The position numbers and the translations under genes are program-made. Below, one piece after another: positions 1 to 4,766 of a stretch of 5,142 bases of DNA. Position 1 is the first letter of the stretch. Every line of letters starts with the position of its first letter. Under the pieces are notes generated by a model. It saw nothing but the letters and a program-made list of their open reading frames with translations. It did not search any database and was not told where the DNA came from. This DNA is from Enterobacteriaceae endosymbiont of Plateumaris sericea (GTDB taxonomy: Bacteria; Pseudomonadota; Gammaproteobacteria; Enterobacterales; Enterobacteriaceae), in the NCBI RefSeq assembly GCF_012562605.1, contig NZ_CP046225.1:1-5142 (forward strand). Direction: 5' to 3'.

Positions 1-2769
1 ATGAAAAAATTTTTTTATTTTTTTAAAAAATTTCTAATTTTATATTTAATAAATTTTAAATATAAAAAAATATTTAATTTTAATAGTAAATTAAAATTAA
101 TTTTTGTAATATTTTTTCTATTTGTAAATAATCTGAATATTATGGCTAATCAATTACACCATAAAAAAATAAATGTTAATAAAATTAATTATTTCAAAAA
201 GAAAAAATATCATTCTTTAAAATTCTCTGAGAAAAAAAAATTATATTTTATTAATAGTAATGATTTAGAAAATCATTCTATAAATGTTCCTAAAATTAAT
301 GCAGAATTAAATAATAGAAGAGAATTATATAAAAAAATGTTTCCTCAAGATAATTCATTACAATCATTTGAAAATAATAATTTTAATCAAAAAAATTTAT
401 TCGATTTAATATTAGAAACTAAAAATATAATAGAAATAGGATTAAATAACAAAGAAAAATTATATAAAATTTTACAAAATAATTTTTTTAATACTGTCAC
501 TGAAGAATTAAATAATCAAATAAATTCTGGAATAAAAGATATATTTGGTTTATTTAATCTTAAAGGCAAAAGTTTAATAAGTTTAAACTTAGATGAAAAT
601 TTAGTTTTAGATAATTCTGAAATTAAAATTTTATTTTCACTTTTTGAAAAAAACGAATATTTATTTTTTTTTCAAGATGGTATTCACAAATCTGATAATA
701 GAAATCAAATAAATTTAGGAATTGGTTTTCGTAAATTTTATAAAGATTATATGTTAGGTATAAATAACTTTTTAGATTATGATATTATTCATGAAAATAC
801 AAGAACTAGTGTTGGTATAGAATATTGGCAAGATTTTTTTAAATTAAGTGCAAATGCTTATATTAGATTGAGTGGATGGAATCATTTAGATCAACAAAAA
901 ACTTTTTTTAATGATCATATTAATCCACTTGAAAAAAATAAATTTTTTAATTATAATGAATATTATGAAAGACCTGCTAACGGATGGGATGTTAGATTAG
1001 AAGGATCTTTCCCTAAAATACCAGAAATTACTTTAAAATTTTCTTATGAAAGATATTATGGTAATATAGGATTTAAAGAAAAAGAATTTAGTTTTGAACA
1101 TGAAAAATTATTTTTTCCATATATAATGACTGCAGGAATTTCTTATAGACCTATACCTGCATTAGTTTTTTTTTGTGGAAAAACATTAACTTTATCAGGA
1201 GATAGTAATACTAATTTTGGTATTAGTTTAGAATTTCAGTTTGGTATGCCTTGGAATAATCAAATTCATCCTAACAAACGATTATTAGTAAATAAATCTT
1301 CTATAAGAAAAAATAAATATGATTTTGTAAATAGAAATGATAATATTATTTTAGAATATAGAAAAGAACATATAGTTAAATTAAAAACAATAAAAAAAAT
1401 AGTTAATTATCCTGGAACTGAGAATTCTTTAAATGTAAAAGTTGATACAATTGATTTTTTTAAAGGTCTAATTTTTAATAATTTAATTGAATTTAATAAA
1501 AATAATGGTTATATTAAAAAAGATGTAGGTGAGAATTATATTCTTGTATTACCTAATTATAATTTTCAAAATATTAGTAAAAATCATTATTTAATAAAAG
1601 TAACAGCTTTTGATATAAATAATAATAAATCTACATCTTATGTAGATGTTACTGTTTTAAAACCTCCTATTAATAAAAATTTTTCAACATTTACTGCTTT
1701 TCCTAAACAAATATTAGTAAATAGAGAATCTACAAAAATTGTATTTGAAGCAAGAGATATGAATAATAATATAATTGCTCATATAAAAAATATAGAATTT
1801 TTAGTTAATGAAGGAGTAGTTAATAAACGTAATATTCGTATTTCTAAGATAATTGAAAATCCTAAAGGAACATATACTGCTAAAGTAATTTCTTTAACTA
1901 CTGCTAAACTTATTTTAAGAGTAAAAATAGATAAAAAAATTGATAAAAATTTATCTGATGTAGTTACTGTAATAAATCCTTCAGCAGATAATATACAAAT
2001 TGTTGCTAATACTTATAAATGTAAGATTAGTGATGTAGTTCGTATGACCATAATTGTTTTTGATAAAAAAGGTAGTAGATTAGGTAATGCTCCAGTTAGA
2101 ATAGAAACAAGATCTATTAGAGATCGTCAAGGTAAAATACGTAAAGATTCTGGATTATTACATATTCATAATTTAAGAACAGGACAAATATCTATTGGTA
2201 GAAAATTCTTATTTTATACAAATAGTTTTGGAGAAATACCTTTAAGAATGTCTGATCCTAAAGGTATTGGTGTTAAAACTGAATTAGATTTTATTGCTGA
2301 AGATTATATAAGAAAAAGAATGTCTTTTATATTTACAGTAGTTACAAGTCCTGATGTTCCTGAAGCAAATATGTATGGACATATGCAAGATATTATAGAA
2401 GTTAATAAAGTAAAATTTCTTAGACCCCCATTAATGCAAGAATATAGAGGTGATGTTGTACGTCATCATCTAAATGAAGATTGGGCAGCATTAACTTGGG
2501 ATAATGGAGTTTCATATTGTAGAACTATTCAACATGGTGATATTCCAGAAAAATATAAATTAAAATATCTTTTAGATGCACATGGTGATGATATTTTTAG
2601 TATTTATGGATGGCCTATAACTACAGATTTTGTAGAAGTGTGGAGTGCTAGTTGGATAATAAAAGCATATATTAAAAGACCTTTATACTATTATTATGAT
2701 TTTTCAACAAAAGAGGAAGTTGAAGGAATTAATAGTTCTTCTTTTGCAGTAACTTGTGAAGTTAAATAA
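1..2769 (+). CDS. Intimin/invasin-family inverse autotransporter adhesin
   Basis: Outer-membrane adhesin: a beta-barrel anchors the protein and exports its C-terminal part to the cell surface. Residues 1-50 form a long signal peptide (Lys/Phe-rich start, hydrophobic stretch about 31-45, likely cleavage near IMA|NQ at 49), typical of this family. Residues 50-180 are low-complexity Asn/Lys-rich with no clear LysM domain. The barrel spans about 185-418, with family signatures FFQDGIHKSDNR (223-234), NLGIGFRKF (238-246), YWQDFFKLSANAYIRLSGW (275-293), ERPANGWDVRLEG (323-335) and FSYERYYGN (347-355). NRNDNIILEYRK (444-455) matches the conserved segment after the barrel. Ig-like domains follow (about 475-555, 560-660, 665-785). 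The C-terminal domain (about 790-922) has NEDWAALTW, YGWP and WSAS motifs; C840 and C919 are spaced like the terminal disulphide of intimin and invasin. It somewhat resembles the ends of SinH/RatA-type Salmonella proteins. The internal ATG at 142 is rejected because it would remove the signal peptide. The ligand is unknown. Confidence 0.93.
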   Translation: MKKFFYFFKKFLILYLINFKYKKIFNFNSKLKLIFVIFFLFVNNLNIMANQLHHKKINVNKINYFKKKKYHSLKFSEKKKLYFINSNDLENHSINVPKINAELNNRRELYKKMFPQDNSLQSFENNNFNQKNLFDLILETKNIIEIGLNNKEKLYKILQNNFFNTVTEELNNQINSGIKDIFGLFNLKGKSLISLNLDENLVLDNSEIKILFSLFEKNEYLFFFQDGIHKSDNRNQINLGIGFRKFYKDYMLGINNFLDYDIIHENTRTSVGIEYWQDFFKLSANAYIRLSGWNHLDQQKTFFNDHINPLEKNKFFNYNEYYERPANGWDVRLEGSFPKIPEITLKFSYERYYGNIGFKEKEFSFEHEKLFFPYIMTAGISYRPIPALVFFCGKTLTLSGDSNTNFGISLEFQFGMPWNNQIHPNKRLLVNKSSIRKNKYDFVNRNDNIILEYRKEHIVKLKTIKKIVNYPGTENSLNVKVDTIDFFKGLIFNNLIEFNKNNGYIKKDVGENYILVLPNYNFQNISKNHYLIKVTAFDINNNKSTSYVDVTVLKPPINKNFSTFTAFPKQILVNRESTKIVFEARDMNNNIIAHIKNIEFLVNEGVVNKRNIRISKIIENPKGTYTAKVISLTTAKLILRVKIDKKIDKNLSDVVTVINPSADNIQIVANTYKCKISDVVRMTIIVFDKKGSRLGNAPVRIETRSIRDRQGKIRKDSGLLHIHNLRTGQISIGRKFLFYTNSFGEIPLRMSDPKGIGVKTELDFIAEDYIRKRMSFIFTVVTSPDVPEANMYGHMQDIIEVNKVKFLRPPLMQEYRGDVVRHHLNEDWAALTWDNGVSYCRTIQHGDIPEKYKLKYLLDAHGDDIFSIYGWPITTDFVEVWSASWIIKAYIKRPLYYYYDFSTKEEVEGINSSSFAVTCEVK

Positions 2770-2813: not shown

Positions 2814-2853
2814 GTCAAAATTTAATAAAAATATATTTTTATTAAATTTTGAC
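2814..2853. repeat. Perfect 40-bp palindrome between convergent genes
   Basis: Positions 2814-2833 are exactly reverse-complementary to 2834-2853 with no spacer; the arms begin GTCAAAATTT. It lies 44 bp after the adhesin stop and 40 bp before the pheA stop. On the + strand the stem is followed by T5 (2854-2858), so it could act as a weak intrinsic terminator for the adhesin. Each arm has only two G/C bases. On the - strand the stem would be followed by an A run, so it does not look bidirectional. A cruciform or replication-related role is also possible. Confidence 0.9.
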
Positions 2854-2878: not shown

Positions 2879-2900
2879 AAAAAAATAAAAATTTTATTTT
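2879..2900 (-). terminator. A/T-only hairpin overlapping the pheA stop codon
   Basis: On the - strand AAAATAAAA (2900-2892) pairs with TTTTATTTT (2890-2882) around a single central base and runs into further T (2881-2879). The pheA stop codon TAA (2896-2894) lies inside the left arm. The form is that of an intrinsic terminator, but the stem has no G/C pair, so real termination strength is uncertain. Nearly the same sequence ends repA. Confidence 0.4.
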
Positions 2901-3574
2901 GTTAATACTAGAAATTTTGTTTTATTATTTATTTTATTTGATAAAAATAAAGTTTTGATTATATTTAAATTATATAATTTAGCTGTTTCTTTATTTCCTA
3001 TTGCAGCAAAATATTTTGATTTAAATATAGATATTTTTTTTATTGCATCAGCTGTACTATCACAAATATTTTTTTTCCAAAGAGGATATTTATCAATAAA
3101 AATACTACATTGTTTGAATGGTTCAGAATGACTAAAAATAGTGTTAATATCATTAATATTAGTAATATTACTATATGAAATTAAACAATGTTTAATTGGA
3201 ATTTTAAATTGATAAAAAATTTTTAAAGAATTATATTTTAATAATAATTTATTTACTTCTTTTATTTTTCCAGAACAATTATTTTCTATAGGTACTATAG
3301 CAAAATTAATAATATTTTTTTCTATAGAAAAAAATATTTCAGAAAAACTATTACAACTTACATTAAAAATTTTTTTTCTAGAAAAAAAATTTTTAATGTA
3401 AGTTAAAGTAGCTAAATAAGAATAAGTACCTTGAGGGCCTAAAAATGCTATACTTATAGAACTATTCTTCTGTATATTAAAATCTACATTTTCAATAAAA
3501 TTTTTTAAATTACTAATATTTATTATATTATTTGAAAAATAAAATTTAAAATTTGTATAAATATCATTAATCAT
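2894..3574 (-). CDS. pheA: Prephenate dehydratase domain of PheA, lacking chorismate mutase and ACT domains
   Basis: Predicted to convert prephenate to phenylpyruvate (loss of water and CO2), the penultimate step of phenylalanine synthesis, in the cytosol. Residues 40-224 align with the dehydratase domain of the E. coli P-protein: IAFLGPQGTYS (42-52), VPIEN (94-98), SHSEPFKQC (148-156), STADA (173-177), AAIGN (190-194) and the end TKFLVL (219-224). Residues important in E. coli are kept: E97 and N98, S148, Q155, and T219 of the TRF motif, here TKF. E. coli E232 corresponds to D172. At 226 residues it is far shorter than the usual ~386. Only a linker-like stretch (1-39) remains before the domain, and the protein stops where the ACT domain would begin. 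No ACT remnant is visible downstream. Phenylalanine feedback control should therefore be absent, and chorismate mutase must come from elsewhere. The frame is intact, so it is not called a pseudogene. No Shine-Dalgarno is visible. repA ends 62 bp upstream on the same strand. Confidence 0.93.
   Translation of the reverse strand: MINDIYTNFKFYFSNNIINISNLKNFIENVDFNIQKNSSISIAFLGPQGTYSYLATLTYIKNFFSRKKIFNVSCNSFSEIFFSIEKNIINFAIVPIENNCSGKIKEVNKLLLKYNSLKIFYQFKIPIKHCLISYSNITNINDINTIFSHSEPFKQCSIFIDKYPLWKKNICDSTADAIKKISIFKSKYFAAIGNKETAKLYNLNIIKTLFLSNKINNKTKFLVLTK
3311..3338. repeat. Perfect 28-bp palindrome inside pheA
   Basis: Positions 3311-3324 are exactly reverse-complementary to 3325-3338, with no spacer, centred on TCTA/TAGA and flanked by T7/A7 runs. 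It encodes approximately codons 80-88 (IFFSIEKNI). That segment aligns without gaps to E. coli PheA, so the palindrome seems to have arisen by substitution within inherited coding sequence. Confidence 0.92.
3355..3404. repeat. Perfect 50-bp palindrome inside pheA
   Basis: Every base from 3355 to 3379 pairs with its partner from 3404 back to 3380; symmetry breaks at 3354/3405. The arms start AACTTACATT and the centre is CTAG flanked by T8 and A8. It encodes about residues 58-73 of PheA (TYIKNFFSRKKIFNVS). By my remembered alignment, PheA is about two residues longer than E. coli PheA in this stretch. The mRNA could form a 25-bp stem. Confidence 0.95.
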
Positions 3575-3618: not shown

Positions 3619-3644
3619 AAAAAAATAAAAATTGTTTTATTTTT
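3619..3644 (-). terminator. A/T-only hairpin overlapping the repA stop codon
   Basis: On the - strand AAAAATAAAA (3644-3635) pairs with TTTTATTTTT (3630-3621) across a CAAT loop and continues into T. The repA stop TAA (3639-3637) lies in the left arm. It could terminate or attenuate transcription between repA and pheA. The stem has only A-T pairs, so strength is uncertain. Apart from a CAA insertion at the loop, its core matches the hairpin at the pheA stop. Confidence 0.4.
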
Positions 3645-4494
3645 CGATATGTACAAAATCATGAATATCAATTAAACATTTCCATCCTGTTGCTAATGAA
3701 ACTTCTTTAAGGGATTTTTTTAAATTTTGTCTAAATTTCCAAAGAATATTAATATTACTACCACAAAGTTTATATAAAGTATTTACTTTATAAGGTAAAG
3801 GTATATTATGAGAACAATAAAAACAATGTATCCATTGTGATAATGACTTACCTTTTAATTTCATTCGTTCTTTTAAAGAAACTCCTGTCCACATTGTATC
3901 AGAAAAAAAATAAATTATTTTTTTATTTAAAATAATTATATGTTCCTTTGTTTTTTCATTTCTATACCATTCATGTAATAAATGACCCATATAAAAAAAA
4001 TATTCATTTCTTATTTCTATTCCACATACAGATAATCTAACTAAACAAGATTTTAACCATTCATAATCACTTTTACCAGTATTTCTATTTATAGATTTTA
4101 AAAAATCATAAGATTTAAATTGAACTTTTTCTCCTAAAGGAACTTTTTTTAATCTATGTAAACATTCTAACCAAACATCTAAATCAGATTGATCTAAACT
4201 TTCACCTGTAAATCGTATATAAATATTATTTAATGTTGCTTTTAAAACATTTTTTTCATATTTTCTATAACCTTTTTTAATAACACCAAATAATGAACTA
4301 CGTAACATTATATTAGGAACAGCTCTTTTACTATTTGAAATAATAGGCATTCTTTTTTTAATAAAAATATTTTCATCTTCTTTTGAAATATTAGATGAAT
4401 TAAATAAAATTTTTTTATTTTTATTACAAGACGAAATTCTACTATTACTTTTACTAGCTAATTTACTAATTCTAGTATACAGAGATTTATACAT
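3637..4494 (-). CDS. TrfA-family plasmid replication initiator (RepA)
   Basis: Initiator that would bind the iterons at 4687-4766, open the origin and recruit host helicase and polymerase. Residues 58-285 follow IncP/RK2 TrfA closely: AVPNIMLRSSLFGVIKKG (58-75), RFTGESLDQSDLDVW (94-108), PLGEKVQF (119-126), INRNTGKSDYEWLK (135-148), GHLLHEWYRNE (170-180), GKSLSQWIHCFYCSH (215-229), LYKLCGSN (240-247), FRQNLKKSL (254-262) and the end DFVHIEK. These cover the tandem winged-helix region. Length 285 equals, from memory, the short TrfA form of RK2. Residues 1-55 are poorly conserved and Lys/Ser/Asn-rich; I see no QLSLF-type beta-clamp motif there. The start at 4494 is the first in-frame ATG; an ATG at 4506 opens only a two-codon ORF. 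No Shine-Dalgarno is visible. The nearest iteron is about 190 bp upstream of the start codon, a usual arrangement for iteron plasmids. pheA follows after 62 bp. Confidence 0.92.
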   Translation of the reverse strand: MYKSLYTRISKLASKSNSRISSCNKNKKILFNSSNISKEDENIFIKKRMPIISNSKRAVPNIMLRSSLFGVIKKGYRKYEKNVLKATLNNIYIRFTGESLDQSDLDVWLECLHRLKKVPLGEKVQFKSYDFLKSINRNTGKSDYEWLKSCLVRLSVCGIEIRNEYFFYMGHLLHEWYRNEKTKEHIIILNKKIIYFFSDTMWTGVSLKERMKLKGKSLSQWIHCFYCSHNIPLPYKVNTLYKLCGSNINILWKFRQNLKKSLKEVSLATGWKCLIDIHDFVHIEK

Positions 4495-4686: not shown

Positions 4687-4766
4687 ATAGAAGGTAGCAA
4701 GACTCGGGATAGAAGGTAGCAAGACTCGGGATAGAAGGTAGCAAGACTCGGGATAGAAGGTAGCAA
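4687..4766. repeat. Origin iterons: three perfect 22-bp tandem repeats plus a 14-bp partial copy
   Basis: Each unit is ATAGAAGGTAGCAA followed by GACTCGGG. Full copies lie at 4687-4708, 4709-4730 and 4731-4752; a fourth at 4753-4766 has only the first 14 bases. All copies are identical. The unit is half G+C in DNA that is otherwise roughly four-fifths A+T. A period of about two helical turns puts sites on one face of the helix; RK2 iterons have similar 22-23-bp spacing. With a TrfA-type gene next door these are best read as RepA-binding sites of the vegetative origin, with the 14-bp part as the minimal candidate site. The sequence itself is unlike the RK2 iteron as I remember it. Confidence 0.88.

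Follow-up and report, generated by a model that had tools for sequence, protein, structure and literature searches.

The closest described counterparts of a long palindrome translated through both of its arms are found in the mitochondria of Nematomorpha (Mikhailov et al. 2019, PMC6649704), whose protein genes harbour long perfect inverted repeats that are gained and lost between species. The excerpts available of that article count 110 repeats of at least 15 bp in four genomes, with palindromes of up to 284 bp, and its authors weigh repeat conversion or template switching as well as a parasitic character. In template-switch hairpins (Monttinen and Loytynoja 2022, PMC8794818; Abraham and Hazkani-Covo 2021, PMC8604942), stems are created or repaired from the other arm in one step, with paired changes and amino acid replacements as the result; as excerpted, these studies cover RNA genes and short inverted repeats in yeast genes. 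Quasipalindromes are also described as being made more perfect by template switching (PMC7202029, in excerpt). Rickettsia palindromic elements, as summarised in the available part of PMC6649704, lie within bacterial coding sequences as insertions that recur through the genome and lose the identity of their arms with time. Finally, the Buchnera plasmid pLeu carries a conserved 97-nt stem-loop between repA2 and leuA (PMC3229713, in excerpt).

The pheA gene on a small plasmid of the Enterobacteriaceae endosymbiont of the reed beetle Plateumaris sericea contains a palindrome comparable to each of these. As in Nematomorpha, it is long, perfect and coding in both arms, it varies in its presence between species and the identity of its arms is kept while their letters change; unlike the mitochondrial repeats, it is one long-lived palindrome in one bacterial plasmid gene, followed across 24 species through counted paired changes. 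It differs from the hairpins of the template-switch studies in that its stem of 23-25 bp is coding and persists through a genus. With Buchnera pLeu it shares the setting of a symbiont amino-acid plasmid and a very long perfect palindrome adjoining a rep gene, although the pLeu palindrome is non-coding, has arms of 44-52 bp and belongs to an unrelated plasmid and host. Of the Rickettsia traits, neither insertion, genomic recurrence nor loss of arm identity with time applies to pheA. No earlier report of the pheA palindrome was found in the open-licence literature searched, as judged from listings; the texts of PMC7289800 and PMC12508126 contain no word that begins with 'palindrom', nor does that of PMC7289800 contain the term 'inverted repeat'.

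A palindrome translated through both arms

The window, meaning the whole stretch of DNA analysed, is an entire plasmid contig of 5142 bp; the symbiont genome to which it belongs totals 522,069 bp and has a chromosome of 516,927 bp (Table 1). Among named plasmids, the one nearest to it comes from the Plateumaris pusilla endosymbiont, at 87.4% over pheA.

Table 1. Positions of the features discussed, in the window unless another sequence is named
Feature	Position	Strand	Basis or remark
Inverse-autotransporter gene (IAT)	1-2769	+	
Second perfect palindrome, arm 20	2814..2853		between convergent ends of autotransporter gene and pheA
pheA, 226 aa, prephenate dehydratase domain only	2894..3574	-	ORF list and Pfam
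Perfect 50-bp palindrome, 25 pairs, no spacer	3355..3404	coding on -	reverse-complement check and covariation in relatives
Arm encoding residues after the centre (KKIFNVS side)	3355..3379		
Central four bases (pairs 1-2), predicted hairpin loop	3378..3381		
Arm encoding residues before the centre (TYIKNFFS side)	3380..3404		
trfA-like replication initiator gene (TrfA, PF07042)	3637..4494	-	upstream of pheA, same strand; ORF list and Pfam
Tandem 22-bp repeats	4687-4766		
G021/G022 alternative pheA palindrome	L046 4645-4697; L047 4726-4780		arms agree, spacers differ
AAIGN-motif hairpin in pheA	L036 4311-4352; L042 4278-4315; L043 3445-3482; L048 4371-4408		
G012 66-bp palindrome	L037 2876-2941		
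G017 chromosomal 40-bp palindrome	L075 9308-9347		
Buchnera pLeu 97-nt palindrome, repA-leuA	L080 2892-2988		compared in L081-L090

An earlier note on this DNA, made from the sequence alone, had described a perfect, spacer-free palindrome of 50 bp that encodes part of an enzyme and lies far beyond chance expectation, and all three statements were borne out. Direct comparison confirmed that the segment equals its own reverse complement over 25 pairs, with a centre between positions 3379 and 3380 that falls on a codon boundary; the next pair outwards, C at 3354 and A at 3405, does not match, and the palindrome ends there. Both arms are translated within the protein gene pheA, the ORF containing a prephenate dehydratase (PDT) domain (PF00800, E 3.6e-46), and the 50 bp have an exact match at one place only in the 522,069-bp genome. 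The single-stranded palindrome is predicted to form a hairpin of 23 pairs with a 4-base loop, and predicted folding energies of the region are -26.2 kcal/mol for 101 nt as RNA (z -6.1) and -19.8 as DNA (z -6.7). A role as an intrinsic terminator within pheA was rejected on inspection of the sequence, the stem being A/T and in mid gene, with GTAATAG preceding any T run on the coding strand.

Chance, or an assembly artefact in A/T-rich DNA, is scarcely credible as the source of the palindrome, even though A/T runs make up its core. Five 200-kb third-order Markov sequences built from the sampled host chromosome yielded, with spacers of up to 8 allowed, a single hairpin whose arm reached 14 or longer, namely 15. 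Perfect arms of at least 17 are similarly rare in real coding DNA from the chromosome: the 522,617 bp (353,937 + 168,680 bp) sampled from chromosomal ORFs of at least 100 aa contain one (arm 20), as against 21, including by manual count 15 at the pheA palindrome site, in the 117,847 bp of ORF DNA of 24 related plasmids; the many repeats per genome of the Nematomorpha type were accordingly not found in the chromosomal sample. Furthermore, 21 of these plasmids show coordinated changes in the two arms, some of which match a synonymous third-position G or C in one arm to a substitution in the other (GCT/AGC, GAA/TTC, GAT/ATC), and the palindrome is therefore not an assembly error.

Several other observations concern the remainder of the plasmid and the enzyme. 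The second window palindrome probably serves as a two-way terminator, to judge from its place between convergent genes, and the tandem 22-bp repeats, amounting to about 3.6 units, are likely iterons of a TrfA-type origin. Pfam reported no ACT domain in the plasmid PheA, which comprises the prephenate dehydratase domain only, in contrast with the bifunctional label that PheA receives in the excerpted text of PMC7289800. Chorismate mutase domains (PF01817) were detected in each of the 24 genomes; all of them lie on contig 1, within open frames that measure 350-418 aa.

Distribution and paired change across the genus

PheA is encoded on contig 2 in 23 of the 24 genus genomes, that of the source included. 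The plasmid contig of the remaining genome appears to be masked, and the 23 together with the P. pusilla endosymbiont plasmid, which equals that contig in length, make up the set of 24 plasmids. The palindrome is present at homologous codons, perfect or worn, in 21 of them. All 25 pairs are Watson-Crick in 11 plasmids and 24 are in a further three, the misfit lying within the central two pairs, such that every stem pair (3-25) is intact in 14 of the 24; the remainder retain 23 pairs (two plasmids), 22 (three), 19 (G006) or 17 (G007), with decay evident in G005-G007. G021, G022 and G023, with 14, 12 and 13 of 25 pairs, were judged to be without the palindrome and were left out of the pair totals, the parsimony mapping and the helix scan of gene alignments.

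In a tree built from 11 chromosomal genes, IAT and trfA, with pheA excluded, and rooted on the five Plateumaris-type plasmids, G021-G023 are monophyletic and sit beside G005-G020; the Plateumaris-type group is reported as non-monophyletic, the root being a polytomy. Under this rooting the palindrome would have been lost in G021-G023, while a root on G021-G023 would turn this into a gain in the others. Species thus gain and lose such palindromes, as shown by the absence of this one from G021-G023, its wear in G005-G007 and the presence of other pheA palindromes in single species. In G021 and G022 another palindrome, with arms of 24 and 25 and a 5-base spacer, is located close to where pheA begins, whereas the best arm in G023 pheA is 15. 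The G012 plasmid has a perfect 66-bp palindrome (arm 33) that straddles the pheA terminus and the intergenic DNA separating it from the autotransporter gene, and in several species a second pheA hairpin, with arms of 14-17 and differing letters, surrounds the AAIGN motif.

The paired substitutions that the earlier note had proposed to count in the pheA of related symbionts were found. Across the 21 palindrome sequences, 495 of 525 cells are Watson-Crick, and ten of the 30 unpaired cells fall in pairs 1-2, two of the 25; G:U cells number 5 and A:C cells 7 of the 525, such that G:U is not preferred. When one arm was slid by 1-3 columns, the proportion of paired cells, with G:U allowed, fell from 96.3% to 49-56% (19 distinct rows representing 20 of the 21 sequences, G002 being omitted for a 3-base loop insertion and the identical G014 and G017 merged). 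On the same rows the covariation score was reached by none of 500 shuffles, while the number of further pair types was ordinary (153 of 500). One parsimony map gave 20 double changes from one Watson-Crick pair to another in stem pairs 3-25, against 12 breaks; by manual tally, ten of the 20 are transversions on both sides, which cannot pass through G:U. On that map the central pairs 1-2 break nine times and undergo one double change, besides one further mismatch change. The five plasmids that form the closest group (G000, P. pusilla, G002, G003 and G004) have no mismatch in 125 cells, even though five pairs have changed. A scan for covarying helices of at least 4 pairs, with gap columns removed, in alignments of 3 plasmid and 11 chromosomal genes found one at the pheA palindrome only, and its mirror control found none.

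These paired changes extend to the protein sequence. TAC faces GTA in 8 and TAT faces ATA in 13 of the 21 palindrome-bearing sequences, with no mixed case, and a silent tyrosine change is therefore accompanied by a valine/isoleucine change in the other arm. Likewise, GCT, which substitutes alanine for threonine, is accompanied by AGC in G008 and P. pusilla, GAA by TTC in P. pusilla and GAT by ATC in G015. In G016 only, a single pair accounts for two replacements, isoleucine to threonine and asparagine to serine.

Proposed copying between the arms and its alternatives

The explanation favoured here, and considered moderately likely, is concerted evolution, in which fold-back replication copies one arm of the palindrome onto the other and is tolerated in the absence of SbcCD. 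A quasi-palindrome in a common ancestor would have become perfect, and its arms would fold into a hairpin whenever the strand is single during replication; a polymerase switching template inside this hairpin would then either reverse a mutation confined to one arm or extend it to the other as a paired change. The palindrome would be tolerated because SbcCD, which would cut the hairpin structure, is apparently missing, and its deletion would be barred because both arms encode needed residues. It would last until accumulated mismatches stop the copying, as may be under way in G005-G007, and no selected task for the hairpin would be required. The strict pairing of the stem, the freedom of the loop, the transversional double changes and the lack of one-sided cells in the five closest plasmids all appear to fit the copying of arm onto arm in a DNA hairpin. 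The double changes have the form sought for template switching, being Watson-Crick to Watson-Crick, transversions included, with no leaning towards G:U, and the freedom of the central pairs matches the loop that a folded hairpin needs.

SbcCD cuts long palindromes, and template-switch copying is restrained by ExoI, in E. coli, and by ExoVII. Searches that find the E. coli proteins detected SbcC, SbcD and XseA in none of the 24 genomes, whereas the ExoI C-terminal domain and RecA were each present in all 24. The suggestion that the host had lost its palindrome repair is consequently supported as regards SbcC and SbcD, but not as regards recA, the loss of which is ruled out; the presence of ExoI in every genome argues against copying. 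A related suggestion, that PheA exceeds its E. coli homologue by two residues as a record of the palindrome's creation by template switching, did not survive comparison. From YSxLA (YSHLA in E. coli) to the next conserved F there are 19 residues in E. coli PheA and 21 in 22 of the 24 symbionts, with 22 in G002 and 23 in G023; G021 and G022 have the 21 residues without the palindrome, and the two extra residues are therefore not the mark of its birth, ruling out an origin with a two-residue insertion. Template switching fits better as the upkeep of a perfect palindrome than as an origin that left this trace.

The equal length of the palindrome-free G021 and G022 also bears on whether the palindrome might be an inserted or mobile element akin to those of Rickettsia, to which its location within a bacterial coding sequence lends some resemblance. 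There is no in-frame insertion and the genome has one exact copy only; in a 70-base search of the 24 genomes, the long matches were to the pheA site, with those elsewhere, among the matches listed, being partial and rich in A/T and reaching about 50-65 bases at 74-81%. Such an element is accordingly very improbable.

Alternatively, the palindrome may be a DNA or mRNA hairpin with a task of its own, such as shielding the trfA message upstream, keeping PheA output down or acting in plasmid replication, with compensating changes fixed by selection; the earlier note had likewise thought of an mRNA hairpin, a cruciform or an initiation site. This is a serious rival, though the less likely of the two. 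It would accord with the same site and boundaries recurring in 21 of 24 species, with the long-armed palindrome elsewhere in pheA in two of the plasmids that lack this one, and with the Buchnera pLeu palindrome, which likewise has a rep gene and an amino-acid gene as neighbours and for which the excerpted source suggests effects on mRNA stability (PMC3229713). It would accord too with the 14 further pheA hairpins with arms of at least 14, where synonymous shuffles give an expectation of 1.1; the corresponding figures are 5 against 0.5 for IAT, 1 against 0.1 for trfA and 10 against about 4.5 for the 11 chromosomal genes. Selection could account for this richness of pheA in hairpins, but active copying would give such an excess too. 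G:U pairs not being preferred, RNA pairing is therefore not what is kept, and the transversions that make up half of the double changes, the wear in G005-G007 and the absence from G023, which has no comparable pheA palindrome, all count against a selected hairpin. The window has no Rfam match up to E 1, which also eliminates a known structural RNA.

The evidence for hairpin-templated copying is itself uneven. A scan of sister species for clustered changes explicable by a nearby inverted copy, with mirror copies as the control, revealed no genus-wide excess of such footprints (distinct hits against mirror: chromosome 13 and 24, plasmid 28 and 30), and no second covarying helix emerged from the 3 plasmid and 11 chromosomal alignments; both count against copying, as does the unexceptional number of further pair types. 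In pheA alone, however, there were 19 footprints against 4 in the mirror, 9 of them, by manual count, at the palindrome itself. A chromosomal gene of G017 (PF03602) offers a parallel, having a species-specific perfect 40-bp palindrome at a site where four sister species have 14-16 of 20 positions paired. All five changes unique to G017 within it create pairs, which counts for copying, but their density is ordinary, at 5 in its 40 columns compared with 42 in 539 elsewhere in the gene, which counts against it.

Paired change was also apparent in Buchnera, for which 11 of 67 matching plasmid records were compared. The gap between repA and leuA contains arms of 44-52 bp in 8 of the 11, 5 of these 8 being free of mismatches; two records have no long hairpin, and one has an arm of 22 with an N at the centre. 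The arms in the 8 records change in pairs, with 387 of 392 cells Watson-Crick and 1 G:U, a proportion flattered by the choice of the best-scoring arms, and the inner letters are largely replaced between species.

Implications for symbiont plasmids

A tentative interpretation, offered as a possibility, is that pheA contains a self-preserving coding palindrome: in the absence of SbcCD, fold-back copying would overwrite the arms, allowing the palindrome to outlive the radiation of a genus and to dictate amino acids of an enzyme serving the supply of an essential amino acid. Perhaps the same process shapes the Buchnera pLeu palindrome, in which case small symbiont plasmids would be a general home of parasitic hairpins. 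Paired changes in a stem are usually read as proof of a selected structure. Those in pheA lie inside a protein-coding gene, do not favour G:U steps, drag amino acids along with them and are found in a lineage in which the palindrome-destroying nuclease is undetected. The palindrome thereby makes it possible to test directly how far mutation, acting alone, can imitate selection on structure, and it points to a route by which losing a single repair enzyme could come to alter protein sequence. The series of 24 plasmids is a ready tree for measuring the rate of arm-to-arm copying.
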